From the NCBI RefSeq assembly GCF_000243255.1, contig NZ_CM001436.1, positions 2,396,020 through 2,460,019 of the forward strand: a stretch of 64,000 bases of DNA, written 5' to 3'. The position numbers were made by a program, and so were the translations under genes. Origin of the DNA: Methanoplanus limicola DSM 2279. Lineage in GTDB: Archaea; Halobacteriota; Methanomicrobia; Methanomicrobiales; Methanomicrobiaceae. Under the pieces are notes generated by a model that made no database searches, had not been told where the DNA came from, and worked only from the letters and a program-made list of their open reading frames with translations. The first letter of the stretch is position 1; the number at the start of each line of letters is the position of its first letter. Shown here in pieces: positions 10,813 to 62,900 of the stretch.

Positions 10813-10868
10813 GATGATTACCAAAAGTGACTTGAGGGTCAAAGTTATTAAACCTTATTCAAAAAAAG

Positions 10869-19145: not shown

Positions 19146-19291
19146 GATGATTACCAAAAGTGACTTGAGGGTCAAAGTTATTAAACCTTATTCAAAAAAA
19201 GTTGAAACGTTAACAGGCAGGGATTGTTAATAAATTTCAATGGATTCAAAAATTTGTTGCCGTATGATTATTACGAAAGATATGAGATTCT

Positions 19292-25732: not shown

Positions 25733-25891
25733 TTATGAAAAACCCTTATCAAGCGTCATCTGGCTCTCTACATTAAGGCCGGTTACATATACTGAACTTC
25801 CTTCACGCTGATATTTATCAATAACTCTGGCAATTGCCTCAACGGCTGACTGATCCCATATATGCGAATTCTGAAAATCAATCCTGGTCAT
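25733..25891 (-). pseudogene. orphan STAS domain, SulP C-terminal remnant
   Basis: A 52-residue frame from an ATG inside the last codons of the DGC gene. It reads DFQNSHIWDQSAVEAI, then SVYVTGLNVESQ, which is the STAS domain found at the C-terminus of SulP anion transporters. The membrane part is absent. It may be a remnant of a fused or lost transporter, or a short translationally coupled product. It lies within the gap 25521-25877. Confidence 0.6.
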
Positions 25892-26234
25892 TTACCTGCC
25901 GTTTCAGTTCCCTGCTAACTACATCAATCTCTGAAAAGAACGGGTCTTCTGCTCCTCGTTTTTCAATTCCAAGTTCTGTTGCAATTATATGAATGTCCGG
26001 CTCAATACCAGCCTTTTGTATTTTTTTGCACGAACAGCAGTCAGAACAGCCATCCAGAACAACTAAAAAGGCATTGTCCTTTAGCATCTCTGATTTTTTA
26101 TCATCAATTGCAGTTGCTGATAAATGCCTCTCAAAAATACCCGGGTTTCGGAGAATAAATGAGTTTGCCGCCTGAAGAGTAAGTTTTCCCGTGCTTGAAA
26201 TACCAGAGCAGGTAACAAGAATTTTCCCGGTCAT
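25878..26234 (-). CDS. DGC-domain putative zinc-binding protein (ars operon 2)
   Basis: 118 residues from ATG 26234 (MTGKILVTCSG), preceded by AGGTG. A coupled start at 26294 overlapping the arsC stop is possible but would add 20 residues outside the family. Cys motifs VTCSGIS and DGCSDCCSCKK match those of the operon 1 copy. It is followed by the STAS remnant. Confidence 0.75.
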   Translation of the reverse strand: MTGKILVTCSGISSTGKLTLQAANSFILRNPGIFERHLSATAIDDKKSEMLKDNAFLVVLDGCSDCCSCKKIQKAGIEPDIHIIATELGIEKRGAEDPFFSEIDVVSRELKRQVNDQD

Positions 26235-26290
26235 AAAATAACACCTGAGAGTTTCCAAATTCTTAAATTTTTCATCTCTTTTCTCATCAA

Positions 26291-26707
26291 TCATTCCCGG
26301 CCAAATTTTACATCAATAAACTCTGTAATCTCATCTCTGATATTTCTGAAAAAAGACAAAATCTCTTCCTCACTGCCTTTAGCAGATGACGGGTCAATAA
26401 ATCCTGCATGAATTTTTTCCTTCGCCCAGGGAAACATCGGGCATGCTCCCTTTGCACTGTCACAGACAGTTACAAGAATATCCATCTCAACTCCAAAGAA
26501 TTCATCAATCTTTTTAGATCTGTGGCCTGAGATATCAACTCCAATCTCACCCATAACTTTGATGGCATACGGGTTTACAGACGTAACCTCGGTTCCGGCA
26601 GAAAACGCCTCATATTTATCTCCATACCGGGCATTCAGATATCCCTCTCCCATCTGTGATCTTGCACTGTTATGAGTGCATATAAACAGAACCTTCTTTT
26701 TAGTCAT
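26291..26707 (-). CDS. arsC: arsenate reductase, thioredoxin-coupled (copy 2)
   Basis: 138 residues, with Cys10 in CTHNSARS and Cys82/Cys89 in VCDSAKGAC, as in copy 1 at 5423. The two proteins differ at many positions, unlike the ACR3 pair. It reduces As(V) for export by the ACR3 of the same operon. Confidence 0.93.
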   Translation of the reverse strand: MTKKKVLFICTHNSARSQMGEGYLNARYGDKYEAFSAGTEVTSVNPYAIKVMGEIGVDISGHRSKKIDEFFGVEMDILVTVCDSAKGACPMFPWAKEKIHAGFIDPSSAKGSEEEILSFFRNIRDEITEFIDVKFGRE

Positions 26708-26794
26708 TTAATAGATCTCCGTCATACTTCCCTCAGAGGGAATAATCAAATTTTCAAATTTATTATCGAAATACTTAAATTTTCTTTCAGATCA

Positions 26795-27517
26795 TCATAA
26801 TATCATACTTTTAATCCAGATTACAATATAGTAAATTCCACCGGCAATGAAGACATAAGCCGCAGCAGTCCTGATATACGAATCAGCTTTATTCACTCTG
26901 CCCATAAACCTGGCAGCGCCTGTAATTCCTCCTCCAATAAGAAGAGAGACAAGAATTACCGGGAATGCCGTTGCAAGAGCAAATGATGCCGGAATTATCA
27001 GAGGATCGGAGTTACTGACCGCAATTGGAATAAGCATTCCAAAGAAAAGTGCCGCACTAAAAGGGCAGAATGCAAGAGCAAATACAAACCCCAGCCCGAA
27101 ACTGCCTAAAAGGCCCTGATTAAAAAGCCACATTTTAAGCCTGCCGGAATAATCACTCCTCAAAAAATTAAAAGAATCAAATGATATCTCCTTTAGGATA
27201 ATAATTCCTATAATCAGCAAAAAAGGCCCAAGAAGCATCTCACCGTAATTCCTGAGAAATGCAGAGACAGGTGCAACACCCAGTCCGAGCCACAAAACAG
27301 CCGCTGCAACAAGAATGTATCCAAAAGCCCTCCCGCCTGCATACAGAATTCCGGCTGACAAAGTCCTCACAAACTTCTCACCCTTTCCGGAGATATATGC
27401 AATTGCGGCAATATTTGTTGCAAGCGGACATGGACTAAAAGCTGTCATCAGCCCTATGAAAAACGCTGCAACTACGGGGATGCTGCTCATTCCCATGGAT
27501 TCAAGAAAGCCTGTCAA
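26795..27517 (-). CDS. ArsG-like membrane transporter (copy 2)
   Basis: 240 residues, closely similar to the 5925 copy, with the same SPCPLATN and AFCPFSAAL motifs in helices 1 and 4. It overlaps arsF by 4 bp. It is probably an efflux or electron-transfer partner of the ArsF-like lipoprotein. Confidence 0.75.
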   Translation of the reverse strand: MTGFLESMGMSSIPVVAAFFIGLMTAFSPCPLATNIAAIAYISGKGEKFVRTLSAGILYAGGRAFGYILVAAAVLWLGLGVAPVSAFLRNYGEMLLGPFLLIIGIIILKEISFDSFNFLRSDYSGRLKMWLFNQGLLGSFGLGFVFALAFCPFSAALFFGMLIPIAVSNSDPLIIPASFALATAFPVILVSLLIGGGITGAARFMGRVNKADSYIRTAAAYVFIAGGIYYIVIWIKSMIL

Positions 27518-27984
27518 ATACTGCCACCCAAAAGAGGACTAAGAATGGTCTTCATATAATCTGCAAAAGAATTTGGAGAATTTATCCGGTACAGTGCACC
27601 TGCAAGGTTTTCCTTATAAAATTCACCGTTTTTGCCGTAAACACCGATTATCAGAGACGAACCTGCCGCTTCGTATTTATTGACAACCTGAGAGTTATTT
27701 TCATCATCAATATTTATGTGGTCAAATACAAGTTTGCCTGAATCGAGAGAATCCTGATAAAAGGTATGGACGGTCTCATTTGCAAGCTCTCCAAGTAATA
27801 CACAGGAGTAGCACTGGTTATTCGTATGGAAATGATAGAGTTCTACCTTTTGAGCACCATATTTATCTTCAAATTGGGAGATTTTATCTTCATTCCCGTC
27901 TGATGATGCACCCATACATCCTGCTGACAAAATAATTCCTGTCAGGAATACAGATAAAACCAGCAATAATAATTTTTTATTCAT
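27514..27984 (-). CDS. ArsF-like lipoprotein (copy 2)
   Basis: 156 residues. A lipobox (ILSAGC) ends the signal peptide. The thioredoxin-like motif NNQCYSCVLLGEL is kept, as is SLIIGVYGKNGEFY. It differs from copy 1 mostly in the N-terminal spacer. It probably sits on the outer face of the membrane beside the ArsG-like protein. Confidence 0.72.
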   Translation of the reverse strand: MNKKLLLLVLSVFLTGIILSAGCMGASSDGNEDKISQFEDKYGAQKVELYHFHTNNQCYSCVLLGELANETVHTFYQDSLDSGKLVFDHINIDDENNSQVVNKYEAAGSSLIIGVYGKNGEFYKENLAGALYRINSPNSFADYMKTILSPLLGGSI

Positions 27985-28027
27985 AATTCACGTCCTTTCG
28001 ATTCATAAAAATTTAAATTTCGGTCAG

Positions 28028-29140
28028 TTAAGCCTCATTTTCAATGGCACTTTTCTCAAACAGATTCTGTGTCCTAAGACAAATTTTAACAAGCATCAGC
28101 ATAACCGGCACCTCAATTAATACACCGACAACCGTTGCAAGCGCAGCTCCGGATGAAAGCCCAAAGAGAATCGCAGCGGTTGCAATGGCAACCTCAAAAT
28201 GATTCGATGCCCCAATCATCCCGACAGGTGCTGCATCACGGTAAGGCAGTCTGAAGCGTCGTGCCAGGACAAAGTAGCCAAGAGTGAATATCAGCATTGT
28301 CTGAATGAAGAGCGGAACTGCAATCCAGAGTATTGTTAGCGGATTTTGAACTATTACATCACCCTTGAAACTGAAGAGTAAAACAAGTGTTCCAAGAAGT
28401 GCGATAATGCTCACCGGAGTTAAAATATGCAGGAATTTCCCCTCAAACCAGGCCATGCCCTTCTTTGAGATTATCCATCTCCTTGTCAGATAGCCAAGGA
28501 CAAGAGGAAGCCCGACATATACTGCAACCGAGAGCAGAATCGTCTGCCATGGGATCGGCATTGAATTAACCCCGAGCAGAAATCCTCCAAGTGGTGCATA
28601 CAAAATGAGCATTGTAAGCGAGTTTATTGCAACCATAATCAGAGTTAAGCCGTCGTTTCCGCGTGCAAGGTAACTCCACATAAGAACCATTGCAGTGCAT
28701 GGAGCAATTCCAAGAAGGATACACCCTGATACATAACTTCTCCAGAGTTCAACCTCAGTCCCGTTTGCCAGAATTTCTGTTCCGGGAATAAAGTCGACAA
28801 AGACATATCCAAGGAAGAAGTATGCAATCAGAAACATTGTAAACGGCTTAATCGCCCAGTTTATAATAAGCGTCAGCAGAACGGGCTTTGGCGTCTGTGC
28901 CGCTCTTAAAACCTCTCCAAAGTCTATCTTTACCATTATTGGATACATCATGAAAAAAAGAGCGATTGCAATTGGAATTGAGACCTCATAGACAGAATAA
29001 CTATCCAGTGTAACCGCGGCCTGCGGGAAAAATCTTCCAAGAAGAATACCGCCCGCTATACACAGAGCAACCCATATGGTAAGATATTTCTCAAATATTC
29101 CTAGGTCTCTTTTTTTATTTTGGATTTCCAAATTACGCAC
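28028..29140 (-). CDS. acr3: arsenite efflux transporter ACR3 (copy 2)
   Basis: 370 residues. From about 28220 to 29095 the DNA is almost identical to copy 1 (7362-8240), while the first 15 and last 30 codons differ strongly. Such a sharp identity block inside diverged operons points to gene conversion. Conserved helix-4 Cys and helix-9 Glu are present. One ArsR-type site lies just upstream. Confidence 0.95.
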
Positions 29141-29145
29141 CCCTT

Positions 29146-29165
29146 ATTTCAAATTAATTTAAAAT
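29146..29165. promoter_or_regulatory. ArsR-type operator of ars operon 2
   Basis: ATTTCA-N8-TAAAAT, one mismatch from the consensus in the right arm. It is 6 bp upstream of the acr3 copy 2 start and downstream of the arsR gene, suggesting an internal promoter. Confidence 0.55.
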
Positions 29166-29238: not shown

Positions 29239-29628
29239 TTATTGCACGTTGTTTTTACCGGATAAAAGCCACTTTTTCCCTTTTTGTGTCAGGCTGTATG
29301 TTATCCAGGTTCCTTTCTGCTCACCGGAAATAAGCCCGGCTTTTTTTAAAATTGACAGGTGATATGAAAGGCGGGAATCGGAAATTTCAAGAATTGATTT
29401 TATTATGCAGACGCAAAGCGGCTCTATCTCAAGCATTGAGAGTATTTTGATTCTTTTTTCATCCGCAAGTGCACGAAAGATTATGCAAATATTTTTAATA
29501 TTATCTTCAGATGGAATACTGTCTGTTATTTGATCAATCTCATTAATTCCATCGCAATCACAAAGTAATTTTCCTGATTGCCCTTTTATTTCCGCATATA
29601 TTTTTTCGGTTCTGTTTTTCTCTGACAT
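29239..29628 (-). CDS. arsR: ArsR-family regulator (ars operon 2)
   Basis: 129 residues from ATG 29628. The winged helix includes LADEKRIKILSMLEIEPLCVCIIKS with a Cys-x-Cys likely to bind As(III) (segment broken at 20 residues: LADEKRIKILSML, then EPLCVCIIKS), and the recognition region DSRLSYHLSILKKAGL. It has a long acidic N-terminus. It is closely related to the ArsR at 33025 and either could bind the ATTTCA-N8-TGAAAT sites. Confidence 0.88.
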   Translation of the reverse strand: MSEKNRTEKIYAEIKGQSGKLLCDCDGINEIDQITDSIPSEDNIKNICIIFRALADEKRIKILSMLEIEPLCVCIIKSILEISDSRLSYHLSILKKAGLISGEQKGTWITYSLTQKGKKWLLSGKNNVQ

Positions 29629-29719
29629 CAGCAATTTCCGGTCTGTTTTATTTAATTATGAAGATACTTCAATTTATACTGATGCCGGATTTACTCATAG
29701 AACATACACCTGCCGCCTG

Positions 29720-30846: not shown

Positions 30847-31731
30847 TCAACGAACCACCAGCACATGAGCATCAGCCCTATGAACAACGGCCTCGGCTAC
30901 TCCGCCAAGAAGAGCTTTTAAAGCGCCGGTTCTTCCTTTTGCTCCCATTACAATGATTGTAGGTTTGAAAGAATCTGCAACACCTAATATCTCATCAATA
31001 GCATTTCCGGTTACCAGTTCGGTAACGATTTGAGATATGCCATAATTATTCATTTGCTCCTTTAATTCTGCAAGACGCCTTGTGTCTTTTTCGTTGAACT
31101 CATTTATCTGTTCCTGCGTTGCAGGCCAGAGACGCCTTGTGTCCTGAACATGCAGGATCACAAGCTGATCTGGTTTTGCACTGGCCATCCACTCTATAAA
31201 CGGAATGCACCTTTTTGCCTCTTCAGAGAAATCAGTAAGATAAAGGACGCGGCGGAAGAGATCAGAATTAATAGTGCATGATTCAGGGTCTCCCTTTTTC
31301 ATAACAGATAACCTGAGGATGAGCAGGGGAACATCTGTATGGTGCAGGACATTTTCTGTCTGGCTTCCAAGCAGCATCCGGGGGATAAGCGTTTTCCCGT
31401 GCGAACCCATTACAATGAGTGAGGGAGGATTATTTTCTGCCTTTTCCAGGATCTCTATCCATGGAATGCCTTTTAAAACCTCATATTCCACTTTTGATAC
31501 GCCACAGTCTTCTATATTGCTCTTCCACCCCTTTAGGACCTGATCATCAGATTCATAGATGTCGGAGTCATCTGCCGTCTCAGGGACATTGATCACATGC
31601 ATAAGTTCAGTCTCCACATGCAAAAGTTCAGCCTCTTCAATACCAAGACGGGCAATCTCTGCAACGGCAGGGAGCATCCTGCCTGCTGTGCCGTATACTT
31701 CCAATGGGATTAAAACCGATTTCATTTTCAT
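30847..31731 (-). CDS. tandem universal stress protein (UspA family)
   Basis: 294 residues with two Usp domains. Each keeps the ATP-binding pattern G-x2-G-x9-G(S/G): VMGSHGKTLIPRMLLGSQ in the first and VMGAKGRTGALKALLGG in the second. It is cytoplasmic. The start has AGGTGA 6 bp upstream. An ArsR-type palindrome 110 bp upstream puts it in the apparent arsenic regulon. Confidence 0.9.
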   Translation of the reverse strand: MKMKSVLIPLEVYGTAGRMLPAVAEIARLGIEEAELLHVETELMHVINVPETADDSDIYESDDQVLKGWKSNIEDCGVSKVEYEVLKGIPWIEILEKAENNPPSLIVMGSHGKTLIPRMLLGSQTENVLHHTDVPLLILRLSVMKKGDPESCTINSDLFRRVLYLTDFSEEAKRCIPFIEWMASAKPDQLVILHVQDTRRLWPATQEQINEFNEKDTRRLAELKEQMNNYGISQIVTELVTGNAIDEILGVADSFKPTIIVMGAKGRTGALKALLGGVAEAVVHRADAHVLVVR

Positions 31732-31840: not shown

Positions 31841-31860
31841 ATTTCAAATCTGTTTGAAAT
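31841..31860. promoter_or_regulatory. ArsR-type operator upstream of Usp gene
   Basis: ATTTCAAA-TCTG-TTTGAAAT, a perfect palindrome with 8-bp arms, 110 bp before the usp start and the best copy of the ATTTCA-N8-TGAAAT motif. The rest of 31732-32013 holds nothing else I can support. Confidence 0.75.
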
Positions 31861-32013: not shown

Positions 32014-32844
32014 TTACAGAGGAAGCCCCAGGAATGAAAAAAATCCTGTCATCTTAAGCCCCATATAGATCATAACAGCAATGAAAACATACTTAAGCTG
32101 TTTTGCGGGCATTTTGTGTGCCACACAAACCCCGGCCCTGGCCATGATTACACCCGGCACTGCAAGAAGCACCCATTGAAGTAAATTTAAATAACCCAGT
32201 GAATATTCAGGGAGTCCGGTAACCGAAAGTCCGTTTATTATATATGCAATTGTCCCGCCAAGAGCAGTAAACGCCATCAGTGCAGTTGATGTTCCTACTG
32301 CTTCATGCATCTTAAAGTGAAGTGCAAGCACCATTATGGGGATTAGAACGACACCGCCGCCAATACCGATAATTCCGGATAGAATACCAATCGGAATACC
32401 CCATAAAAGGAAGATGATGACGTTGTTTACCGGATTTTCTTCCACTTTCGGCGGTTTGGCGGTGAGCATTCTTACGGCACTCAGGAGAATTACAACACCG
32501 AAAATAATTTTCAGGTATTCACCAGGGATTAAAGTCGCGAGGTATGCACCAATAAATGCGCCAAAAAATCCGGCAAGACCCATCGTAACAGCGGCATTCC
32601 ACATGACTGCGCCTTTTTTGTTGTGGCCATATGTTCCGGAAAGAGCAGTTGGAAGTACTACTGCAAGATTTGTACCGAATGCAACAAGAATAGATATATG
32701 AGGATCATAACCCATTGATGTTAAAACCCAGTACTGGACCGGGATCATTATGAAGCATCCGCCAACGCCCAAAAGTCCGCAACCAAAACCTACAACAATT
32801 CCGGTGAGGAGAAGTGCAAGTATGTATATTAATTCCAATTCCAT
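32014..32844 (-). CDS. TauE/SafE-family sulfite exporter
   Basis: 276 residues with eight predicted membrane helices in two repeats (GFGCGLLGVGGCFIMIP and GIIGIGGGVVLIPIM). The family exports sulfite or organosulfonates. The ArsR-type operator just upstream links it to the arsenic response; it could export a sulfur- or arsenic-containing anion. The direction and substrate are inferred. Confidence 0.88.
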   Translation of the reverse strand: MELELIYILALLLTGIVVGFGCGLLGVGGCFIMIPVQYWVLTSMGYDPHISILVAFGTNLAVVLPTALSGTYGHNKKGAVMWNAAVTMGLAGFFGAFIGAYLATLIPGEYLKIIFGVVILLSAVRMLTAKPPKVEENPVNNVIIFLLWGIPIGILSGIIGIGGGVVLIPIMVLALHFKMHEAVGTSTALMAFTALGGTIAYIINGLSVTGLPEYSLGYLNLLQWVLLAVPGVIMARAGVCVAHKMPAKQLKYVFIAVMIYMGLKMTGFFSFLGLPL

Positions 32845-32859
32845 AATTTATCTCCACGC

Positions 32860-32879
32860 ATTTCAATTTACATTGAAAT
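32860..32879. promoter_or_regulatory. ArsR-type operator of TauE gene
   Basis: ATTTCAAT-TTAC-ATTGAAAT, perfect 8-bp arms, 16 bp upstream of the start codon. Confidence 0.72.
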
Positions 32880-33024: not shown

Positions 33025-33384
33025 TTATGGCAGCAGTGCCCTTCCCTTATCAGTCAGACTGTATATTATCCAGTTGCCCTGCTGTTCTCCAAAAATCAGA
33101 CCATTCTCCTTTAAAACCGAGAGATGATAGGACAGTTTTGAGTCGGCAATATCCAGAACTGTCCGGATTACACATACACAGAGCTGCTGCTTTGAGAGCA
33201 TCAGGAGAATTTTCATTCTGTTCTGATCGCTAAGAACATGATGCAGGGTGCAGATCTGCCCGATAGTATCTTCATCCGGCATTTTGCTTACAATTCCGTC
33301 AATCCCGCCGGATTTCTGAAGCGAACTCTCTATCTCCGGAGGCAGTCCGTAACTTTTGGCATCTCCTCTTATCTTATCTGTCAT
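33025..33384 (-). CDS. arsR: ArsR-family regulator
   Basis: 119 residues from ATG 33384 (MTDKIRGDAKS). A longer TTG frame from 33408 would run through the operator and is rejected. LSKQQLCVCVIRTVL supplies the Cys-x-Cys, and DSKLSYHLSVLKENGL the recognition helix. Its own operator lies 18-37 bp upstream, so it probably represses itself. It is divergent from the redox/permease operon at 33671, whose two operators it likely also binds. Confidence 0.9.
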   Translation of the reverse strand: MTDKIRGDAKSYGLPPEIESSLQKSGGIDGIVSKMPDEDTIGQICTLHHVLSDQNRMKILLMLSKQQLCVCVIRTVLDIADSKLSYHLSVLKENGLIFGEQQGNWIIYSLTDKGRALLP

Positions 33385-33401
33385 AATTTGGTATCCCGGA
33401 T

Positions 33402-33421
33402 ATTTCAACTAAATATGAAAT
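33402..33421. promoter_or_regulatory. ArsR-type operator (autoregulation)
   Basis: ATTTCA-N8-TGAAAT just upstream of the arsR start at 33384. Confidence 0.68.
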
Positions 33422-33583: not shown

Positions 33584-33603
33584 ATTTCAAATTTAGTTGA
33601 AAT
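33584..33603. promoter_or_regulatory. ArsR-type operator 2a of the redox/permease operon
   Basis: ATTTCA-N8-TGAAAT, first of a pair, 68-87 bp before the first gene at 33671. Confidence 0.72.
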
Positions 33604-33636: not shown

Positions 33637-33656
33637 GATTCAAATAAATTTGAAAC
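33637..33656. promoter_or_regulatory. ArsR-type operator 2b of the redox/permease operon
   Basis: GATTCA-N8-TGAAAC, exactly 53 bp from 2a, the same spacing as the pair before acr3 copy 1. It also contains TTCAAAT-AA-ATTTGAA (33639-33654). It rules out the ATG at 33635 as a start. Confidence 0.68.
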
Positions 33657-33670: not shown

Positions 33671-33832
33671 ATGTCTGATGAAAAAGAAACTAATGAAAAG
33701 AAAGGGTTTTTCTCCAGATTTATGAAAGGAGAGGGGAACGAATGCGGCTGCGGCTGCTGCGGCGGCATTAAGATTGTGCCAAAAGAGAGCAGCACTGAAA
33801 AGGAAGACTCTGTAAAGGAAGAGGAATCCTGA
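33671..33832 (+). CDS. small Cys-rich protein
   Basis: 53 residues from ATG 33671 (an ATG at 33665 is an alternative). Between charged ends lies ECGCGCCGGIKIVPK with four Cys in six residues, a likely metal or As(III) site. It is the first gene of the operon and is followed after 4 bp by FTR. No named family is certain. Confidence 0.65.
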   Translation: MSDEKETNEKKGFFSRFMKGEGNECGCGCCGGIKIVPKESSTEKEDSVKEEES

Positions 33833-34133: not shown

Positions 34134-35081
34134 GTGATTGAGACGACTTTAAATCCGGTTGCTGAAATGCTTATAACGGCAGGAGAATTCTTCGTAATAA
34201 TAACACTTGAGCTTGTGCTCCTCTTTATTGCGGTAAGTTTCCTTGTCGGGCTTCTTCATGCATACGTTCCGGAAGAAAAGATTAAAAAGACGCTTTCGGG
34301 AAAGAGAAATGTGAGCAGTACCTTTTTGGGCGGGATATTCGGAGCACTGACTCCTTTCTGCTCATGCTCAACAATTCCCATTCTTGTGGGGTTGTTGAAT
34401 GCCGGAGTTCCGTTCACTGCCTCAATGGCATTTCTGCTGGCATCGCCCCTGTTAAATCCTGTAATAATCTTCCTTCTGCTTGCACTAATAGGTCCTGCGA
34501 TGACTATCCTTTATGTTGCTGTCACCTTTGTAGCAATTATTGTTATTGCAACTATGCTTGGCAGGCTTGGATATGAGCAGTATGTAAGAGAAGTAACAGT
34601 TGAAGGGTTAAAGGCAAAGCCTGTGTGTGAATGTACAAGTGACAGTTTTTCCGGGCGGCACAAACCCCGGCTAAAACAGGCATATGACTTTGCAATATCA
34701 CTCTTCCGGCAGGTTTTCTTCTATCTAATCCTCGGTGCAGGAATCGGAGCGTTCATCTACGGGTTTATTCCGGCAGATCTGATAACAGCAGTCGCAGGTC
34801 CTGACAACCCGTTTGCAATACTGGTTGCAGCCGTAATCGGAATTCCCATGTATATCCGGGCTGAGACGATAATTCCGATAAGTGCGGTTCTGCTCTCAAA
34901 AGGAATGGGTATCGGTGCTGTTGTTGCTTTAATTATCGGAGGAGCAGGAGCAAGTATTCCGGAGATCACACTGCTTGCATCAATCTTTAAAAAGCGGCTT
35001 GTTGCAGCGTTTGTAATCTCAGTTCTTGGTGTTGCGATATCCGCCGGAATCATATTCCAGTTGCTTGCAGGAGTCGTGTGA
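34134..35081 (+). CDS. ArsP/COG0701-type permease 1
   Basis: 315 residues, about eight membrane helices. It has the family motif TPFCSCSTIPILVGLL, a second-half GGAGASIPEI, and VCECTS in the middle loop. The GTG start is 3 bp after the FTR stop. ArsP-type permeases export trivalent methyl- or aryl-arsenicals. The extra Cys in CSCS differs from the island permease (CSAS). Confidence 0.85.
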   Translation: MIETTLNPVAEMLITAGEFFVIITLELVLLFIAVSFLVGLLHAYVPEEKIKKTLSGKRNVSSTFLGGIFGALTPFCSCSTIPILVGLLNAGVPFTASMAFLLASPLLNPVIIFLLLALIGPAMTILYVAVTFVAIIVIATMLGRLGYEQYVREVTVEGLKAKPVCECTSDSFSGRHKPRLKQAYDFAISLFRQVFFYLILGAGIGAFIYGFIPADLITAVAGPDNPFAILVAAVIGIPMYIRAETIIPISAVLLSKGMGIGAVVALIIGGAGASIPEITLLASIFKKRLVAAFVISVLGVAISAGIIFQLLAGVV

Positions 35082-35144
35082 AACTTTAAATGATATCAGG
35101 ATACAAAATGAACCATTACAACCGGAAATTCAGGGTGAAACAAA

Positions 35145-36218
35145 ATGATTGATTTAATTATCGGCTCACTTGTTACAGGCTGGGATACACTTGCAGGATA
35201 TCTTGCTGAGCATGTACTGACATGCTTAATCCCTGCATTCTTCATAGCCGGAGCAATAGCCGCACTTGTAAAAAAAGACGCGATAATGAAATACTTCAGC
35301 CCGGATGCGAAGAAGAGCACTGCATACGGGCTTGCATCTGTTTCAGGAACAGTGCTTGCAGTCTGCTCATGCACAATCCTGCCGATGTTTGCCGGGCTTT
35401 TTAAGCGTGGGAGCGGAATCGGGCCTGCAACGACATTTCTCTATGCAGGACCGGCAATTAACATCTTAGCGATTGTCTACACTGCAAAAGTATTGGGCTT
35501 TGACCTTGGTGTTGCAAGGGCGGCCTTTGCAGTAGTTATGGCGATAATAATCGGGCTTATCATGGCATTTCTCTTCAGGTCACATGATGCCGATACAAAG
35601 AAGAAGAATGCCGCGATGCCGTCTACCCCTGTAGTCGGTGATGCAGAGAAACCGAAATGGGTTGTGCCTCTATTCTTTGTCTTCCTTGTCGGAATTTTAA
35701 TAGCCGGAACGGCACAGGCTGACTGGATGATAAAGTTCCCGATAATTTACCTGCTCACTTTAGGGACGGCGTTTCTGCTGATATACTACTTTGAGCGTGA
35801 CGAAGTTTCAGAGTGGGGACTTGAGACGTGGGATCTTACAAAGAAGATCTTTCCCATACTGATTATCGGAACATTTGCCCTTGGTATGCTCTCGTTCTTC
35901 CTGCCGCCGGAGGTATTCAGGCCGTTCTTTGGAACGAATTCGATAGAGTCGACATTCCTGGCGTCAATAGTCGGAACAATCCTTTATATGCCGACACTGC
36001 TTGAGGTGCCGGTTATCGGGACGACATTCGGCTACACATCAGGTGTTATGGCCGGAGGGCCTGCACTGGCACTGCTTCTTTCAGGGCCGAGCGTGAGTCT
36101 TCCGTCGCTACTTGTGATTTCAAGGATAATGGGCCCGAAAAAGACCATAGTCTATGCCGGTCTTGTGATTGTCTTTTCAGCGGTTGCGGGATTTGTGTAT
36201 GGTATGTTCTTCCTGTAA
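35145..36218 (+). CDS. COG0701-type permease 2
   Basis: 357 residues in two membrane halves separated by a charged loop. The motif AVCSCTILPMFAGLFKRG and the later LYMPTLLEVPVIG identify the DUF318/COG0701 family, but another branch than permease 1. The two may form a hetero-oligomer, or export different species. Substrate unknown. Confidence 0.85.
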   Translation: MIDLIIGSLVTGWDTLAGYLAEHVLTCLIPAFFIAGAIAALVKKDAIMKYFSPDAKKSTAYGLASVSGTVLAVCSCTILPMFAGLFKRGSGIGPATTFLYAGPAINILAIVYTAKVLGFDLGVARAAFAVVMAIIIGLIMAFLFRSHDADTKKKNAAMPSTPVVGDAEKPKWVVPLFFVFLVGILIAGTAQADWMIKFPIIYLLTLGTAFLLIYYFERDEVSEWGLETWDLTKKIFPILIIGTFALGMLSFFLPPEVFRPFFGTNSIESTFLASIVGTILYMPTLLEVPVIGTTFGYTSGVMAGGPALALLLSGPSVSLPSLLVISRIMGPKKTIVYAGLVIVFSAVAGFVYGMFFL

Positions 36219-36232
36219 GGTGAAATGAGCAG

Positions 36233-36487
36233 ATGTCAAAGAGAGATAAACCTTGCTGTGCTGCTGAGGCGATGCGGCGGATAAAAAAGGTGGATGTAGG
36301 TGGTATTGTCGTAGGGCTTGCCATGCTTGAGGACATATGCTATGATGTGCGGGATATGAATATCTCCGGCAGAGAAAAAATCGCCGATGAACTGATGAAA
36401 CAAGTTAAAATTTACAATTATATCCCGGAATCGGCATACGGCAAATACCGTGATGCAGTATTAAAGGAATATGAGATGATGAAATAA
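36233..36487 (+). CDS. small conserved protein with N-terminal CC
   Basis: 84 residues. RDKPCCAAEAMRRIKKVDVG is followed by a predicted helical body ending KIYNYIPESAYGKYRDAVL. Similar small proteins beside COG0701 permeases and thioredoxins occur in other anaerobes as I recall them, but no function is known to me. The vicinal Cys pair could bind As(III). Confidence 0.65.
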   Translation: MSKRDKPCCAAEAMRRIKKVDVGGIVVGLAMLEDICYDVRDMNISGREKIADELMKQVKIYNYIPESAYGKYRDAVLKEYEMMK

Positions 36488-36503
36488 ACGGAGAATGATT
36501 AAA

Positions 36504-36740
36504 ATGAAGATTGAAGTACTTGGAACGGGATGCTTAAAATGCAAGAGGCTCATGAAGAATGTCGAAAAAGCAGTCTCTGAATCGGGTGTTGATGCTGAGA
36601 TTGTAAAGATCGAAGATATAACTGCGATAATGGAGAGGGATGTTATGTTTACACCGGCTCTTGCAATCGACGGCGAGGTAAAAGTCTCCGGAAGGGTTGC
36701 AGACGTTTCTGAGATTAAAGAGTTAATCGGAGGTAACTAA
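36504..36740 (+). CDS. small thioredoxin-like redox protein (copy 1)
   Basis: 78 residues from ATG 36504, with CGGAGA 9 bp upstream. LGTGCLKCKRL has the C-x2-C pair at Cys10/Cys13, and VMFTPALAIDG the cis-Pro region, typical of MTH895/TM0996-type archaeal thioredoxins. It probably takes electrons from the FTR of the operon. Copy 2 at 40026 is nearly the same. Confidence 0.9.
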   Translation: MKIEVLGTGCLKCKRLMKNVEKAVSESGVDAEIVKIEDITAIMERDVMFTPALAIDGEVKVSGRVADVSEIKELIGGN

Positions 36741-37211
36741 ATGGGGGATATTCCTAAATGCACCTGTGGCGGGCCTGATGCCCCCGGCGATAAGAAGAAG
36801 ATTATCTTTTCATGCTCCGGCGCCTCAAATGTCGGTGAACTCTCAAACGCTGCGGCTGTTCTGCTGACAAAGGAGGGTTTTGGAAATAAGGCATGTACGG
36901 CATCACTTGCGATAGAAACCCCGTCTGTTATGAAAAAAGCTGAGGATGCAGATTTGATTGTTGTAATTGACGGATGCCCGGTCGGGTGCGCCAGACATAT
37001 TGCGGAAAATGCCGGTGTGAAGATAGATCAGTATCTCATCGTCACAAAACTCGGAATAAAAAAGATCGGTGATATGGACATAGTTGAGGATGACCTTGAA
37101 ACCGTTGTTTCGGCTGCCTGGGAGGGAAAATGTGTCTGCCAGGATGCTAAAGAAGAAAAAGAGTCCGACAAAAAAGCACCCGTCTGCGGCTGCGGCGGCG
37201 GATGCAGGTGA
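36741..37211 (+). CDS. DGC-domain putative zinc-binding protein (copy 3)
   Basis: 156 residues. CTCGG at the N-terminus, FSCSGASNVGEL, IDGCPVGCARHI and a tail of CGCGGGC: eleven or more Cys, more than in the operon 1 and 2 forms. It begins directly after the thioredoxin stop. It may be the thioredoxin's substrate or a metalloid chaperone; this is inferred. Confidence 0.78.
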   Translation: MGDIPKCTCGGPDAPGDKKKIIFSCSGASNVGELSNAAAVLLTKEGFGNKACTASLAIETPSVMKKAEDADLIVVIDGCPVGCARHIAENAGVKIDQYLIVTKLGIKKIGDMDIVEDDLETVVSAAWEGKCVCQDAKEEKESDKKAPVCGCGGGCR

Positions 37212-37434: not shown

Positions 37435-38202
37435 ATGACAGAAATTAGTGAAATTAAAAAAGCAGGTGAAGCAATGAAGAGTATCCTCGGACTTCGCGGT
37501 TCACCTGTCGGTGTGAGACTTTTGAAAGACGATAAACCTGTAGCTGGTGCAGTTATGGCCGGAGGCAACCGTTATTGTCAGGCACTTATGTGGGCAAGAC
37601 ACGGTGAACATGTAATCGTAAACAAAGAGACGATAGCATGTCCGGCGGCTGCACGGGCTTTCGGGTTTAAACCATTGCCTGAACCATTAAAGAGCGGAAA
37701 GGGCCTTGTCGGATTTGGCATTACCTCTGAAGAGACTGTCGGAAAGATGATGTTTGAAGGCATGACAGTTTTTGAGATGGATGAGATTAAACAGATAGAG
37801 CTGTTCCCTCTTGAAAAAGCAGAATCTCTTCCTGATATAATCGTTGTCGAGGATGAGACTGAGAAACTCATGTGGATTACTCTTTCATACATGCATTCTC
37901 ATGGCGGAGAACGTGTTAAAGGTTCAACTGCTGTTCTTCAGGCAACATGTGTTGACTCAACCATTATTCCGTTCCTGGAAAAACGCTTAAACTATGGTCT
38001 TGGCTGCTATGGATGCCGCGATGCAACCGATATGGCATCCGGTGAGGCAATACTCGGATTTCCGGTGAAAGAATTGTCCGCAATTGTTGAGCATCTTACA
38101 TATCTTGATAAAAAAGCTCTGCCTCATTCACGGGGCAAACATGCATATGCATCTTTAAAGGGCGAAATGAAGACAGGGGAAGGTTCCTGTTCTGAATCTT
38201 AA
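37435..38202 (+). CDS. DUF169-family protein
   Basis: 255 residues. The family pattern is seen in LRGSPVGVRLL, RYCQALMWARHGE, and LNYGLGCYGCRD. DUF169 proteins are often next to cobalamin or redox genes in anaerobes and have no assigned reaction. A 223-bp gap without other signals separates it from the DGC gene, so it may have its own promoter. The conserved Cys suggest a redox or metal role. Confidence 0.8.
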   Translation: MTEISEIKKAGEAMKSILGLRGSPVGVRLLKDDKPVAGAVMAGGNRYCQALMWARHGEHVIVNKETIACPAAARAFGFKPLPEPLKSGKGLVGFGITSEETVGKMMFEGMTVFEMDEIKQIELFPLEKAESLPDIIVVEDETEKLMWITLSYMHSHGGERVKGSTAVLQATCVDSTIIPFLEKRLNYGLGCYGCRDATDMASGEAILGFPVKELSAIVEHLTYLDKKALPHSRGKHAYASLKGEMKTGEGSCSES

Positions 38203-38288: not shown

Positions 38289-39932
38289 TCACATTCCGCA
38301 GGTTGAGCGGTCACGATAATATTTTTCACAATAAGAACCAAGCAATTTAACGATTTTTTGGTTATCCAAGCTATAATTTTGTATTTTCACTGTAAGGTTT
38401 CCATCACAAATGATGGTAACTTCCCTAACTCTTCTGAACAGGAAGAATACCCACTTGAGTGTCGGTTTATTCGTTGGTTTGTCTTTCTGGTCTGGGACGG
38501 ACTCTCCAGACTCTAACAACACTTTTCGTATTCTGAATTCAGCAACAGCATATACAAATAAGCATATCGCCATTAATGCTGCCAGTGCTTCAATCCTTTC
38601 TTCTTTCTTTAGAAATACCTCAGAAACCAGGAATTGTTTGTCTTTTACAAATCTGAATCCCCTTTCGACCGTATTTTGATTTTTATAATTGCTGAGAAGT
38701 TCATCCGCTGTCAGTTCAAGGTCATTTGTTGCAAGGACAAATCTTCCTGCTCTGAGTTTTTCCCCCTTAATAATCTCAGAATCCTCGTTCGGTTTTGCTC
38801 TAATAAAGAATACCTTTTTGAGTATCTCATCAGCTCTGGGTCTCCCTTTCTTACCATTTTCCCTTTTGTTTTTGCTGATAATGGAGTATGTGGTAGATCC
38901 AAACATTGGATTTTTTACAATCCACTTTTTTATTGCTTTTTCTGCATCTTCCTGGCAACTGAATTCCTGATTCATCAGTCTGGAAATCTCATTTTTAGCC
39001 TTTATTGTCTTCTTTTCAAGTTTTTCTTCAATTTTTTTAAGATCGCTTTTTACCCTTTCTTTTGCTTCATACATCACCCATTTCTGCTCAACATTACCAT
39101 AGCCAGACATTGTTTCAAAGCAGGAATACCTTTCATCTCCACAATCAATCATTTCGACATCAGATTTTGTCAGGTTGACCACTTCACTTATTGTTCCTTT
39201 AGCTCTGGAAATCCAGAATGTAGTCTCACTTATCTGTTTTATGTTATCTTCTGAATAAAACGCAGCATCAGCGATATAATAGACTTTTTCGTCAAATATG
39301 AGTGATTTCTGGAAGTTTTGGATCATTTCAATAATGCTTTCGCTATCTTGTTTATTGCCTGAAAATGCCTCCACAAATAATGGTATTCCCACTTGATTTG
39401 TCGCAATTCCAAGCACAAAACGATTAAGATCCCACCTTCCGTCTTTTGGATAACCCTTTGTGATATTGATAGTATTGTCAGAATTCCGATTATATTTGCC
39501 ATAAACACTGAAATTGGTAGTATCAACATGGATTAGTTTGGCTGCAAATTCATCATTGATTAAAGATTGAACTACAATTTCATTGAATAATCTGGTCGCA
39601 CCATATTCATAAACTGCATCAAGAGTACGGCCAATAACGTCGTCATTTAGATGCTCAAGCCTAACACCCTCGCCAAGTAAATTTTCAACGGCAAGATCAT
39701 TGAAGAATTTAGGAAAGAGGTAAAGTCGGCGTTCTGTAAAACCAAGACCATTCAAAACCATTGCCTTAAGAACCTGTCCATGGGACAGATTATACTGGCG
39801 CTTTTTTGGGAGAGAATTGTCTGTAATTATCCCAATATGAAGAGAATCAAATATTCCTGCTACCAGGCCAAGGTGATATATTGACTCAATTGAACCATCA
39901 ACATAACTATCTAAGATTTCCATAGATGACAA
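38289..39932 (-). mobile_element. IS1634-type transposase
   Basis: 547 residues, apparently intact. The DDE residues can be placed in IHVDTTNFSVYG, YYIADAAFYS and NTVERGFRFVKD. The N-terminal DUF4277-like part (YHLGLVAGIFDSLHIG) is typical. It lies between two copies of the thioredoxin-DGC pair. I could not define terminal inverted repeats by eye. Confidence 0.88.
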
Positions 39933-40265: not shown

Positions 40266-40727
40266 ATGACTGATATTCCACAATGCACATGCAGCTGCGG
40301 GGATGCAGCAGGAGGGAAGAAAAAGATAATCTTCGCCTGTTCAGGAGCTTCAAATGTCGGGGAACTCTCCAATGCTGCCGCTGTAACGCTTACAAAGGAA
40401 GGCTTTGGCAACAAAGCCTGTACAGCCTCACTTGCGATTAAAACTCCTTCCGTTATGAAGAAGACAGAGGATGCTGATGAAATTGTTGTAATAGACGGAT
40501 GCCAGGTCGGGTGCGCCGGACAGATTGCAGAGAATGCAGGTGTGGATGTGGATCAGTATATCATCATCACTAAACTTGGAATTAAAAAGACAGGTGATAT
40601 GGATATTGTTGAGGATGATCTTGAGAGTGTCGTCTCTGCTGCATGGGAAGGGAAGTGTATCTGCCGGGAAAATGAGGACAATAAGAGCGATAACTCCAGA
40701 TGCGGATGCGGCGGAGGATGCAGATAA
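40266..40727 (+). CDS. DGC-domain putative zinc-binding protein (copy 4)
   Basis: 153 residues, paralogue of 36741 with the same Cys motifs (CTCSCGD, FACSGASN, DGCQVGCAGQI, CGCGGGC). It is 3 bp behind the thioredoxin gene. The pair is a tandem duplicate of 36504-37211. Confidence 0.78.
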   Translation: MTDIPQCTCSCGDAAGGKKKIIFACSGASNVGELSNAAAVTLTKEGFGNKACTASLAIKTPSVMKKTEDADEIVVIDGCQVGCAGQIAENAGVDVDQYIIITKLGIKKTGDMDIVEDDLESVVSAAWEGKCICRENEDNKSDNSRCGCGGGCR

Positions 40728-40889
40728 CTTTTCCTCCGGAACAGACCTGGATCAAAACCATATTACTCCTTCTGGTCAGACCCCGACCTCTTTATATCTT
40801 AGAAAAGATTAACCTGGCAAACAGAATACAGCCTTTCAGGATTACTTCTGAGGAAGATATTGCAAAAAAAAGCGATTTTAAATTATGAT

Positions 40890-42035
40890 TCAGAATTCCT
40901 CTATCCTCCCAAAACCACCTGTCTTTTTTGTAATTGCAGAGTATGACTCTTTTCCGTTGAACTGCTTAATAATTTCATCTGTCTTTGAGACTACATCAAT
41001 ATCTACAAAACGTTCAGGGTATAATACAGAACCAACATAATAACTGTCAGAAAGAACCAGTTCGTGATTCAGTCCGTAGCCCGGATAAGGCAGTACGCCA
41101 TATATTCTGTCATCTTTTACGGCATCAATATCATCATACAATCCACTCCTGAGTTCATCTTTAATAAGTCCGATATTAGACATATCTGCAAATATTATAG
41201 CCGGATTCCAGCCGATTATCTGTTCTTTACTGATCTCAATGGTATTTGAGGCAGATTTAACTCCGGATGCAACATTGTCTGCATTTACCCAGATAAACGG
41301 AGGGTACTTCACCTGTGTTGAGGCAAGCCCGAAAGCTCCCTGCTTTGATAATCCACCCACATAAACAGAAACTTTTTTATCTTCAGCGACATCTGATGTT
41401 CGCCCTTCTAAATCATTAACAAGGCTTTTAATATACAATTTAAGTTCTTCAGATCTCTCTTCCTCTCCAATCACAGAGGCAATCAGATCAAGTGAGGTAA
41501 ATAGATCATTGTTATCATCGGTATAATCCATAAATCCGATTCTGCCTACTCCCGGCTTTATTACAATGACCGGAATTCCGGTTTTTTCCTGGATATGATT
41601 GGCATTTTCAGTATCAATATAGGACGCAACTATAAGATCAGGAGAAACTTTTACAATCTCCTCAAAATATGGATCGCCTGCTCCGCCTGCATCAACTATT
41701 GGAAGTTTTTTAAGTTCAGGATGGGCAGCTAGATAGGGATATTTTGAAAATGATTTATTCTCAGTCTCACTGATTCCGCTGATAACATCTGTTGCACCAA
41801 GATAGGAGAATACCCTTGTTGTCCCCTGGGCGATTGGGATTACAGAATTTACAGAAGCAGGTATTTCAACCTCACGCCCGATCATATCAGTAATAATGAC
41901 TGTACTTTGGACAGTCGCCGTTTCATCATCAGTAGCGCCCGGACTGCCAGAGGCATCAGAGGTACATCCACAGATTAATGTAGCAGCAACCACACACAAA
42001 AATAAAATTGATGTCAACTTTTTAATACCCAACAT
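40890..42035 (-). CDS. ABC-type substrate-binding lipoprotein (BtuF/FecB-like)
   Basis: 381 residues. The lipobox ICGC ends the signal peptide. The mature protein is a cobalamin/siderophore-type binding protein (TDMIGREVEIP, VSPDLIVASYID, IIGWNPAIIFADMS). It delivers a chelated metal to an ABC permease, which is not encoded next to it. An ArsR-type operator 36 bp upstream suggests arsenic-linked control. Confidence 0.85.
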   Translation of the reverse strand: MLGIKKLTSILFLCVVAATLICGCTSDASGSPGATDDETATVQSTVIITDMIGREVEIPASVNSVIPIAQGTTRVFSYLGATDVISGISETENKSFSKYPYLAAHPELKKLPIVDAGGAGDPYFEEIVKVSPDLIVASYIDTENANHIQEKTGIPVIVIKPGVGRIGFMDYTDDNNDLFTSLDLIASVIGEEERSEELKLYIKSLVNDLEGRTSDVAEDKKVSVYVGGLSKQGAFGLASTQVKYPPFIWVNADNVASGVKSASNTIEISKEQIIGWNPAIIFADMSNIGLIKDELRSGLYDDIDAVKDDRIYGVLPYPGYGLNHELVLSDSYYVGSVLYPERFVDIDVVSKTDEIIKQFNGKESYSAITKKTGGFGRIEEF

Positions 42036-42070
42036 AATATTAATATTACCACAGCATATTTATGCATTCT

Positions 42071-42090
42071 GTTTCAAATAAAATTGAAAT
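42071..42090. promoter_or_regulatory. ArsR-type operator of the binding-protein gene
   Basis: GTTTCA-N8-TGAAAT, ninth copy of the motif, between 36 and 55 bp upstream of the lipoprotein start. Confidence 0.7.
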
Positions 42091-42323
42091 GAATGAGATA
42101 ATTTATTCATATTAACAAATATTCAGATAAATCCTCCGGGAGTAAAGGCTGAATAAATTGAAAAAAAGAAGAGAAAAGTCTTTAAGCTGTGATCCTGAAG
42201 ATTCGGCACAGTCGGATTTTTCAGTGATACATAAATATGAAACGATTCTTCCGGTTTAAATCAATTTGAAAGGGAACTGGTCATTATGAATGGTCAGCCA
42301 CCAATGGATTTTCAGACAGTGCC

Positions 42324-43358
42324 GTGACCGCCAAAGGGAATTATATTATGACTGTTCCACCCCCAGTAATTACTATGATACTTAAAGAGCGGGTTACTTT
42401 CAGAACCAGAGAGCAGGCGGATGAATTTGCAGACTGGCTGAAGGATGAAGGATGCAAATCCAGAGTAAGTGAAGTTTTCAGTTCCTCATTAGAAGTTCTT
42501 GCAAAAGGGACATTTGACACCATTGATAACTGGTGTGAGTATATGTCCGGGCAGGACGAAGAGAAAAAAGAGATCTATCAGTTAATAAAAGAAAATAACC
42601 AGAATTATATTGATGTCATAACAATGATCATCGAAAATAGAAATACTTACGGCCTGCTATATACTCATGATGATCTGAAAGCCTCAAGATCAAGTGTATT
42701 GGCCAGATATTATGGCCTGCCTGATATTGAAGGAAACATTCGGATTCCACAATACTCATCCGACATATTTAAACAGGAGATATTTCGGGAATTCGAACTC
42801 ACTGTAATCCATGCTATCATCGAAGATGAGGGTTATGTAAAAGAGAATGAGGAGGGTTATATTCTTGCAACAGATAAAAAACCCGGTGATATGATAACAA
42901 AGACCGGAGTTAATATGATTGCGGATAAACCAATCCCCAAATACCCGGGAATTGAGATTATACCAGGGTTCCTTCCCGAAATGCAGTATGAAGTTTCTTT
43001 CTCAATGCCGGTATATCTAAATGTAGATCCACAGATGCTTGGGGATGTCCTTTTAGAACTGGGAATTTCCCCCGATGACATCAGACAATATCTGAATAAT
43101 TACACCATTAAAAGAAATATTCTCACACTACTGCTAAAGCTGGTAGAGAAGTCCGGATCAGTCAGAAATGAAGAGCTAAAAGATACATTTGAAAATTTCT
43201 GGGAGACTCAGACTGAAGAAGACGGGTTAAAATCAAAGATAAATATAAGTGCAGTACTCCTGGATAAATTTACTGCTGAACTCAAACGTGCAGGACTTAT
43301 ATCCACAAAAAACAACAGAATGGTGCCGGCTTCAGAGAAGAGCAGCAGAAGAAGATAA
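42324..43358 (+). CDS. hypothetical protein
   Basis: 344 residues from GTG 42324, or 336 from ATG 42348, which gives MTVPPPVITMILKER. It is mostly helical and acidic, with a C-terminal winged-helix-like segment (LLKLVEKSGSVRNEEL, then AELKRAGLI). It may be a regulator with an unknown sensor part. A 13-residue frame (42286-42327) ends on the GTG (GTGA) and may couple translation. I do not recognise the family. Confidence 0.6.
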   Translation: MTAKGNYIMTVPPPVITMILKERVTFRTREQADEFADWLKDEGCKSRVSEVFSSSLEVLAKGTFDTIDNWCEYMSGQDEEKKEIYQLIKENNQNYIDVITMIIENRNTYGLLYTHDDLKASRSSVLARYYGLPDIEGNIRIPQYSSDIFKQEIFREFELTVIHAIIEDEGYVKENEEGYILATDKKPGDMITKTGVNMIADKPIPKYPGIEIIPGFLPEMQYEVSFSMPVYLNVDPQMLGDVLLELGISPDDIRQYLNNYTIKRNILTLLLKLVEKSGSVRNEELKDTFENFWETQTEEDGLKSKINISAVLLDKFTAELKRAGLISTKNNRMVPASEKSSRRR

Positions 43359-59957: not shown

Positions 59958-62900
59958 ATGATAAAAATTACATGCATCTCAACTGTATCATCACCTTCGA
60001 TCATTGAGGCTGCACATAAAATCCGGAAAAATTTCGGGATTGATATCGATTTCCGGCTGTATTACCCGCACCAGATACAGAACGAAAACATAGATGAGGA
60101 GACTGTAATCAGGCATCTCCAATCTTCAGACTGCGTTCTGCTTGATATAAGAGGCGTGGGCAGGGCAAATGAACTTGCCATAAAGGCTCTCAGAGATAAA
60201 AACTCAGTCTGCCTTAACATGATGGGACCGTGGAGCAATCTCTTTGAAATCACACGCCTCGGGGCGATGTCGGGGAAGGAAATTCTTGCAAAATCACGGG
60301 CAAACAAGGAAAAATCAGAGCCAACGGTTTTTAAAGACGATACAGCCCGTCCTCCAGAAAAAGAGAAAGATGAGAATGCACCGCCGGAGGACAGGCGGAA
60401 GATAATGAAGGATATGCTCTCCGAAAGTTCAGGCTCACTGAACCGTGAGGATATTGCAAATTATCTGCAGTGTATCCAGTACTGGCGCGAGGGAGGACTG
60501 GAGAATTACTCGCAGATGTTTATACTTCTGCTCAGGAGATACCTCGGGCAGACCGGCCTTCCTGCACCAAACCCCCCTCTTCACCATCCGGATTACGCAA
60601 TATTTCACCCCGACCTGGGATATTACACAGAACGGGACGAATACTTTGCTGCATCGGGATACAACCCGGAAAAGCCGACACTTGGCATAATATTTCACGG
60701 CGGAATGCACCTTGACCAGAATATCCCGTCAATAAAAGGGCTCATCGGAGCACTTCCCGAATGCAATATAATACCTGTATATGCAAACCCGGAGAACAAC
60801 ATCCATTCCATTGAGAAATACTTTATGGACGGTGAAAAACCGCTCGTTGACGGAATCATTAACCTGAAATGGTTCAGGATCAACGGCGGCCCACTTGGCG
60901 GAAACCCGGAAATAACACAGATCCTTCTAAAAAAACTCAATGTCCCGGTATTTGCGCCGGTATCACTCTTCGGCCAGGATGTTTCCGAATGGGAGGATTC
61001 GATCGCCGGAATTTCACCTGTTGCCTCTATAATGTCGGTTATCTGGCCTGAACTTGACGGTTGTATAGAGCCAATTCCAATATGCGGTCTTATGCCAGTC
61101 GAGATTGAAGGTGAAGAATGCAGTGAAATACAGGTTATTCCGGAAAGGATTGAAAAGATCTCCGGAAGGATACTCAAATGGCTCAGACTTAAAAGGCTGA
61201 TGAACAGTGAAAAAAAGGTAGCCATAATTATATACAGCTATCCTCCGGGTGAAGGCAACACAGGAGGTGCCTCCTATCTTGACACTTTCGTCAGTGTAAA
61301 GCGTATGCTTGAAAAGCTGAAGGATAACGGATATAATGTCGATATACCTGAAGGAAAACTTCATGAGATCTTTGAGGAGAACTGCATTGTCAATTCCGGC
61401 TCATGGTTCGACATATCAAAAACAGCAGAGAACAGTTTTTCATGGGATTTATCATCTTACCTGGAATATTTCAACTCTTTCCCGCCAGATGTCCGGGATG
61501 ACGTCAATGAGGCATGGGGAACTGCTCCCGGTAATGTCATGACCCTTAATGACAGGTTTATCCTTCCCGGAATGCAGTATGGAAATGTCCTTGTTGCTAT
61601 TCAGCCTGCACGCCCTCCCCTGACCGAAGATGATGTAGCAAAGGCTGCACATGACAAGACAAAACCGCCGCATCACCAGTACATAGCATTCTACCGCTGG
61701 CTTGAGACAGTATGGGGGGCAGATCTTGTATTCCATGTCGGAACCCACGGGCTTGCCGAATTTACAAAAGGAAAAGAGATCGGAATGAGCAGTAAATGCT
61801 TCCCGGACATTCTCATAGGCAATATGCCGCACCTTTACATATATTCGGTGACAAACACCTCCGAGGCTACAATTGCCAAAAGGAGGCTTTACGGCACAAT
61901 GCTCAGCTACAATTCTCCGCCGTTTACAACATCCGATCTCTATGAGAAGTATATAGAACTGGAAGATTTAATCGCAGAGCATGAAGAGGCAGAAAGGCTC
62001 TCACAGGAAGTCAGGGTAAAAAGAACGGAAGAGAAGATCTTTGAGATTGCAGAAGAGCTTCATTTTGACCTGGACAGCATACATGCAATTCATGAACAGG
62101 TCTATGAGATGAAGAGGTCAATAATTCCCCAGGGCCTTCATACTCTCGGTGAAATGTACAAACCTGAGGCATATAAGCATTATATTGAATTTACAATCCG
62201 GTATGACAGGGACGGAGCAAAATCCCTCAACAGGATAATTGCAGAATCACAAAAAATCCCCTATGATGAGGCAATAAGGGATAAAGGAAATTATGCAACT
62301 GTTCTTGACAGCATTGACAAAAAATGCTCTGAAATTGTCAGTGTTCTGGTTGAACAGGGCATTGATGAAGCTGTTGTCTTCTCAGGAACAGGCGAAGAGC
62401 TCCATGACGACCTGAGAAATACCCTTAATCTCGGCCTTACACTTGCAGGCGACTATGCCGACAACGGCCTTGAGCTTGAAAACTGCATCAGGGGGCTGAA
62501 TACGGAGTTTATCGCACCGAGGGTCGGGGGCGATGTTATACGCAAACCGGAAGTGCTCCCGACCGGAGGCAACCTTCTTCAGTTTGATCCGACAAAAATC
62601 CCTACACAGACAGCTTTTGAACGGGGACAGGAGATTGCAGAGAATACGATTCAGAAATACCTTAATGAAGAAGGAAAGTACCCGGAGAGAGTAGGAACAG
62701 TCCTGTGGGGTTTTGAGACAAGCAACAGCGGAGGGGAGACAGTCGGGCAGATCCTCTCTTATATGGGTGTCAGGGTTACAAGAAAAGCCGGCTCATGGTC
62801 ACCCGAACTAAAGGTTGTTCCGATGGAAGAGCTTGGCAGGCCAAGGATTGACTGCCATGTGAGCATATGCGGCTTTTTCCGTGACATGTTCCCAAACATC

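Follow-up and report, generated by a model that had tools for sequence, protein, structure and literature searches.

The reverse-strand gene at 40890-42035 of the Methanoplanus limicola window (the whole 64-kb stretch of DNA that was analysed) encodes an orphan substrate-binding lipoprotein of 381 amino acids, identified by its reading frame and its match to PF01497, with a candidate ArsR-type operator at its promoter. On balance, we favor the view that this protein is repressed by ArsR, is derepressed by arsenic, and feeds an importer of the FecCD type whose genes lie at another locus.

We infer ArsR binding, induction by arsenic, and docking onto a distant permease in the following scheme. 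An ArsR of the ars island would sit on the operator and block transcription of the lipoprotein gene; binding of As(III) or a related metalloid would release ArsR, and the gene would be derepressed at the same time as ACR3, ArsP, and the other genes under such operators. The lipoprotein, anchored outside the membrane, would then capture a metal chelate or a small metal oxyanion and, once loaded, might dock via E125 and E271 on an importer of the FecCD/BtuC type.

An orphan substrate-binding lipoprotein

The sole Pfam match of the protein is PF01497, which scores 61.4 bits (cut-off, 27.5). Its N terminus (...LFLCVVAATLICGC) carries a motif that we take to be a lipoprotein signal, and its only cysteines, at positions 14, 22, and 24, all fall within this signal region. 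The gene stands alone. The convergent downstream gene (40266-40727, forward strand) encodes, according to Pfam and the locus comparison, a second DGC protein, and the divergent upstream gene (42324-43358, forward strand) encodes a hypothetical protein without a Pfam match that is syntenic with the ars locus of G024, a genome of the same genus. These two genes form the left and right flanks of a block that is missing from G024.

A cognate FecCD permease and an ATPase encoded alongside are usual, if not strictly required, for PF01497 proteins of type II importers. Here the PF01497 profile and, in the model, the matching two-lobed fold are present, whereas no FecCD permease adjoins the gene. No FecCD permease is found in the 64-kb window, where the best hit of a permease query has an E value of 0.69, and no permease of the queried type is found within 15 to 16 kb around two orthologs of the gene. 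The genome, which comprises 3,200,946 bases in the type strain (PMC4149034), has 7 FecCD matches (6 of them full-length), all outside the window, and 8 places matching PF01497. The initial annotation, which described a lipoprotein of a chelate-binding family without neighboring ABC permease genes, is thus borne out.

The AlphaFold model of the lipoprotein has a mean pLDDT of 83.6. The nearest solved relative is TM0189 from Thermotoga maritima (2etv_A; E value, 7.1e-75; Z score, 42.7; rmsd, 1.6 over 329 residues), which shares the fold over its whole length at 37 to 38% identity. The PDB title of TM0189 calls it no more than a putative Fe(III) ABC transporter protein, and a literature search on it found no paper. 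The next structural matches are 4hn9, MolA, 4ovk, YiuA, and Helicobacter CeuE.

Residues E125 and E271 align with the ERIVALKPD and REQVLARSP segments of Escherichia coli BtuF, which presumably contain the glutamates that dock onto the permease. This alignment covers 150 columns at 19% identity, with an hhalign probability of 92.6%. The two proteins thus have the superfamily and the docking-glutamate segments in common, but B12 binding by the lipoprotein is not indicated. BtuF is not among the 50 structural matches listed, which excludes nothing.

A paralog in the same genome, SBP7 (G000:C1:1370602-1371666), belongs to the same family and shares 37% identity with the lipoprotein. It has its own permease and ATPase, and an LCVC-type arsR follows closely downstream in each of the two genomes of the genus; unlike the lipoprotein gene, it is not preceded by an operator (best score, 5.7 bits).

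The ars-type operator in the window and in the genome

The candidate operator of the lipoprotein gene, TTTCAAATAAAATTGAAA at 42072-42089, is a perfect TTTCAA-N6-TTGAAA palindrome that precedes the ATG at 42035 by 36 bp; the previously noted segment 42071-42090 is this site with one extra base on each side. Scored with a matrix derived from arsR and ArsP sites of related genomes, it reaches 25.25 bits and ranks fourth in the window. This score is attained in none of 60 random 64-kb sequences and, among composition-matched 150-bp promoters, in 2 of 20,000 (first-order) and 0 of 20,000 (second-order). A putative TATA-like element (GAATAAATTATC, 42097-42108, reverse strand) lies 8 bp upstream of the operator, and the resulting order of TATA-like element, a gap of about 8 bp, operator, and start codon resembles that of the arsR promoter. 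The lipoprotein promoter has a single site, in contrast to the doublets at the main ars promoters. The proposal that the gene carries the same operator as the ars genes, which is the regulatory part of the original reading, therefore appears well supported at the sequence level.

In related genomes, 39 of 41 ArsP2 stretches have a site that deviates from the palindrome at no more than one position and lies no farther than 450 bp from arsR, ArsP, or FTR, and 23 of the 41 have a doublet spaced by 50 to 54 bp. Forty of these stretches were fetched by ArsP2 position (out of 119 ArsP2 places in 117 genomes). The remaining one, L101, is a biased member of the set because it was drawn from the search for related SBPs. 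A site with no more than one mismatch is missing only from L101 and L147, and the former carries a variant doublet scoring 16.4 and 16.0 bits. The training set of the matrix comprises 108 sites (103 of them distinct) taken from the same 450-bp neighborhoods with up to two mismatches allowed, so that chance sites may be included. The set contains no sequence from the genome of the window and includes those of the same-genus G024 and of a G018 ars locus nearly identical to that of the window. The window sites at 33403 and 32861 occur letter for letter in the G018 locus, whereas the lipoprotein site does not, and the 22-mer of the latter is absent from the relatives' sequences in the matrix set. 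At the level of titles and abstracts, no description of an archaeal TTTCAA-N6-TTGAAA operator was found.

The window contains five perfect palindromes (starting at 8337, 31842, 32861, 33585, and 42072) and, with up to two mismatches, 21 sites, compared to a mean of 8.96 in 100 shuffled sequences (standard deviation, 2.97; largest value, 16). One-mismatch sites at 8390, 29147, 33403, and 33638 lie beside ACR3, arsR, and ArsP genes, and all nine best-scoring sites of the window adjoin the genes for ACR3, ArsR, ArsP, TauE, the stress protein, or the lipoprotein. Pattern and matrix together define a doublet (8337-8354, perfect, and 8390-8407, one mismatch) before the ACR3 gene at 7176-8273, a one-mismatch site (29147-29164) before the second ACR3 gene at 28028-29140, a one-mismatch site (33403-33420) at the arsR promoter, and a doublet of sites 53 bp apart (33585-33602 and 33638-33655) at the ArsP operon. 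Two more perfect sites precede the universal stress protein gene at 30847-31731 by 111 bp (31842-31859) and the TauE/SafE gene at 32014-32844 by 17 bp (32861-32878). A candidate regulator is the ArsR/SmtB-family repressor recognized by Pfam at 33025-33408 (reverse strand), which likely starts at the ATG at 33384 and contains an LCVC motif, presumably part of its metal site; a second candidate ArsR is encoded at 29239-29634. On the forward strand, 34134-37211 encodes the core of the ars operon, identified from Pfam matches and conserved on the maps of relatives: ArsP1, ArsP2, a small protein, an MTH895/ArsE thioredoxin-like protein, and a DGC protein.

Several other features of the window accompany these genes. 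A small Cys-rich frame of 53 amino acids (...NECGCGCCGG...; 33671-33832) directly follows the ArsP operator doublet. Two identical operator-like sites with one mismatch (10857-10874 and 19190-19207; 20.9 bits) are located beside a repeated HxlR/ArsP-like segment, one of them directly before a gene for aldehyde:ferredoxin oxidoreductase. By eye, 5085-8273 and 25878-29140 are parallel blocks of DGC-like, ArsC, CcdA-like, thioredoxin-lipoprotein, and ACR3 genes. A DUF4277/DDE transposase gene (38289-39932) lies within the ars island and adjoins the duplicated DGC gene.

Genome-wide, the perfect palindrome is found 11 times and its reversed control pattern not at all. Eight of the 11 sites are intergenic, stand before a start codon, and score between 19.6 and 27.4 with the matrix; the other three are inside reading frames (7.8, 18.7, and 16.0). 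With one mismatch allowed, there are 71 sites versus 18 for the reversed control, and single near-matches are therefore weak evidence. Elsewhere in the genome, an operator doublet with one mismatched site (G000:C1:86019-86089, L009) lies between an LCVC-type arsR and a transporter gene that is YedE-like by eye; G024 has a site between these genes as well, and G007 has a doublet there.

Orthologs and the conservation of control

At an E value of 1e-85 or below, three of the 232 genomes compared for the class encode the lipoprotein, counting the present one. Its orthologs are 71% identical in G016 and 75 to 80% identical in Methanogenium cariaci (G008). The three proteins form a clade of their own (SH-aLRT of 100 with a quick tree method), the deeper placement of which is unsure because long branches meet. 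A scan of genome contigs yields 15 relatives, only one of which, that of M. cariaci, is an ortholog.

The status of the ars-type operator differs among the three copies: it is strong here, weak in G016, and absent in M. cariaci. The G016 ortholog, flanked by what appear by eye to be cupin-like and formate dehydrogenase-like genes, is located about 1.3 Mb from the ArsP2 gene of that genome. It has a site of 17.1 bits with two mismatches, 21 bp before the start codon, a score reached by 20 and 24 of 20,000 simulated promoters (P of about 0.001). In 52.9 kb of G016 sequence, only its two ars operators are equally strong. A relaxed pattern matches 17 sites in the whole G016 genome (forward, 10; reverse, 16; reversed control, 1 and 3), five of which score at least 17 bits. 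The best score before the M. cariaci ortholog is -0.2 bits, which indicates no operator; this copy is frame-broken in a draft assembly, and the broken frame may reflect either decay or an assembly error.

Gene neighborhoods differ among the orthologs, and a search at an E value of 0.1 found no noncoding DNA common to the gene and its two orthologs. G024 retains the flanking genes and is without the block 40679-42337, its best protein match having at most 38% identity; the block was therefore gained here or lost there. These differences, together with the lack of a site in M. cariaci and the location of 3 of the 11 perfect genome sites inside reading frames, fit an incidental match, in which the gene landed in the ars island and the palindrome plays no regulatory role on it. 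This is unlikely, given that the site is perfect, scores highly, and precedes the start codon by 36 bp, and given the arsR-like position of the TATA-like element, the rarity of such scores in simulated promoters, and the weaker site that also precedes the G016 ortholog.

None of 18 related SBP genes (18 of 21 stretches) has an operator upstream (best score, 6.2 bits), so the control is peculiar to the small clade and there is no family-wide link. Nor does arsR accompany related SBPs as a general rule: an LCVC-type arsR is found in only 3 of the 21 stretches (L073, L093, and L101). In the 41 ArsP2 stretches, the only related SBP close to arsR is that of L101 (genome G025), about 0.43 kb after arsR on a 5.2-kb contig, and it has no operator (0.2 bits). 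L152 contains a weakly related SBP (28% identity) about 4 kb from ArsP2. A general link of the SBP family to ars genes was rejected on these numbers, and the two cases serve as a lead only.

A further reading, which we consider rather improbable though not negligible, is that of a dedicated arsenic-response binding protein. This small clade of orphan lipoproteins, present in three genomes, would have kept its ArsR control, if weakened, far from the ars locus, and would supply a specific metal compound (e.g., of Ni, Fe, Mo, or W) that runs short in methanogens under arsenic.

Influence of ArsR on such genes has a precedent in the arsenic stimulon of Agrobacterium, where deletions of arsR reportedly alter transcripts beyond the ars operon, among them those for iron-type ABC binding proteins (PMC7965956). 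That system is bacterial and its reported transcript changes are partly indirect, whereas here the candidate operator stands directly at the promoter.

Candidate ligands

Among the structural matches, MolA of Haemophilus influenzae (3psa; Z score, 26.9; E value, 1.7e-21) is the highest one with a ligand confirmed in a paper: this PF01497-type protein takes a small oxyanion and is reported to bind molybdate and tungstate (PMC4031551). The lipoprotein could likewise be a MolA-like binder of molybdate- or tungstate-type oxyanions, perhaps offsetting the interference of arsenic or thioanions with Mo/W enzymes. In line with this option, 9 of the 21 stretches that surround related SBPs contain genes for FmdE-like proteins, versus 1 of 11 bacterial loci scanned. 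However, no FmdE-like gene is found in the window, and MolA, which has the same fold, is only 23% identical to the lipoprotein and works with its own MolBC, whereas no permease is nearby here. YiuA (Z score, 25.9) is tied with MolA within 1 unit, and Helicobacter CeuE (HpCeuE, 22.5) comes next; the PDB titles describe YiuA with iron and siderophore-type ligands and CeuE as a Ni-His complex. In addition, on a haloarchaeal plasmid (NZ_CP024046.1, L205), a relative of the lipoprotein is encoded with a permease and an ATPase directly upstream of [NiFe] hydrogenase genes, although a second such plasmid has no [NiFe] hydrogenase genes beside its SBP cluster. We regard a specificity for Mo or W oxyanions as improbable.

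The apparent coregulation with ACR3 and ArsP and the negative outcome of permease queries around all three copies would also suit a protein that binds an arsenical (arsenite, thioarsenate, or a methylarsenical) directly and acts as a surface scavenger or sensor and not in uptake. This function is very unlikely indeed: the three cysteines all lie in the signal region, the docking segments are kept, and we know of no PF01497 protein that binds arsenic.

The initial annotation had suggested that the protein takes up cobalamin needed for arsenic methylation. ArsM, the enzyme for such methylation, uses S-adenosylmethionine and not cobalamin, and no ArsM match in the genome passes the curated cut-off (best score, 53 versus 263 bits). 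The lipoprotein does share a superfamily with BtuF, and a gene elsewhere in the genome that is CbiM-like by eye (Co/Ni transport) has a perfect site of 22.3 bits 48 to 49 bp before it (G000:C1:1726869-1726886, L011). However, BtuF is a distant relative, and the nearest structural relatives with known ligands are not B12 binders. The CbiM site does not recur before CbiM in 19 relatives (of 24 other genomes with a match), where the best score is 16.2 bits and the other 18 are at most 7.0, a warning that a good site may be confined to a single genome. Repression of cobalamin synthesis genes by ArsR2 has been reported in Agrobacterium (PMC7965956), and methanogens are said, in work cited in PMC6205960, to be able to methylate metalloids through methylcobalamin and MtaA. 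Taken together, uptake of cobalamin or another corrinoid for arsenic methylation seems quite doubtful, less credible than an oxyanion ligand, and vitamin B12 is not an especially likely ligand.

The nearby DUF169 and cobN genes had also been read as a hint of corrinoids. Both are present. CobN (59958-63776) is encoded about 18 kb away, with a weak operator match (11.0 bits) inside its coding region and no promoter site (best score, 2.7 bits in 400 bp). The DUF169 gene (37435-38202) is a member of the ars cluster: DUF169 recurs in 8 of the 41 ars stretches of related methanogens, suggesting an arsenic-linked role for this uncharacterized family. The other initial suggestion, that the lipoprotein scavenges a metal displaced by arsenic, is possible.

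If the favored reading of an ArsR-controlled lipoprotein serving a distant importer is true, the capture of a metal compound would be tied to arsenic sensing in a methanogen, through an operator that is defined by sequence and directly testable. The TTTCAA-N6-TTGAAA operator also provides a way into the arsenic regulon of this group of methanogens; its candidate members here are ACR3, the ArsP operon, arsR, TauE, the universal stress protein, the transporter that looks YedE-like by eye, and the lipoprotein.
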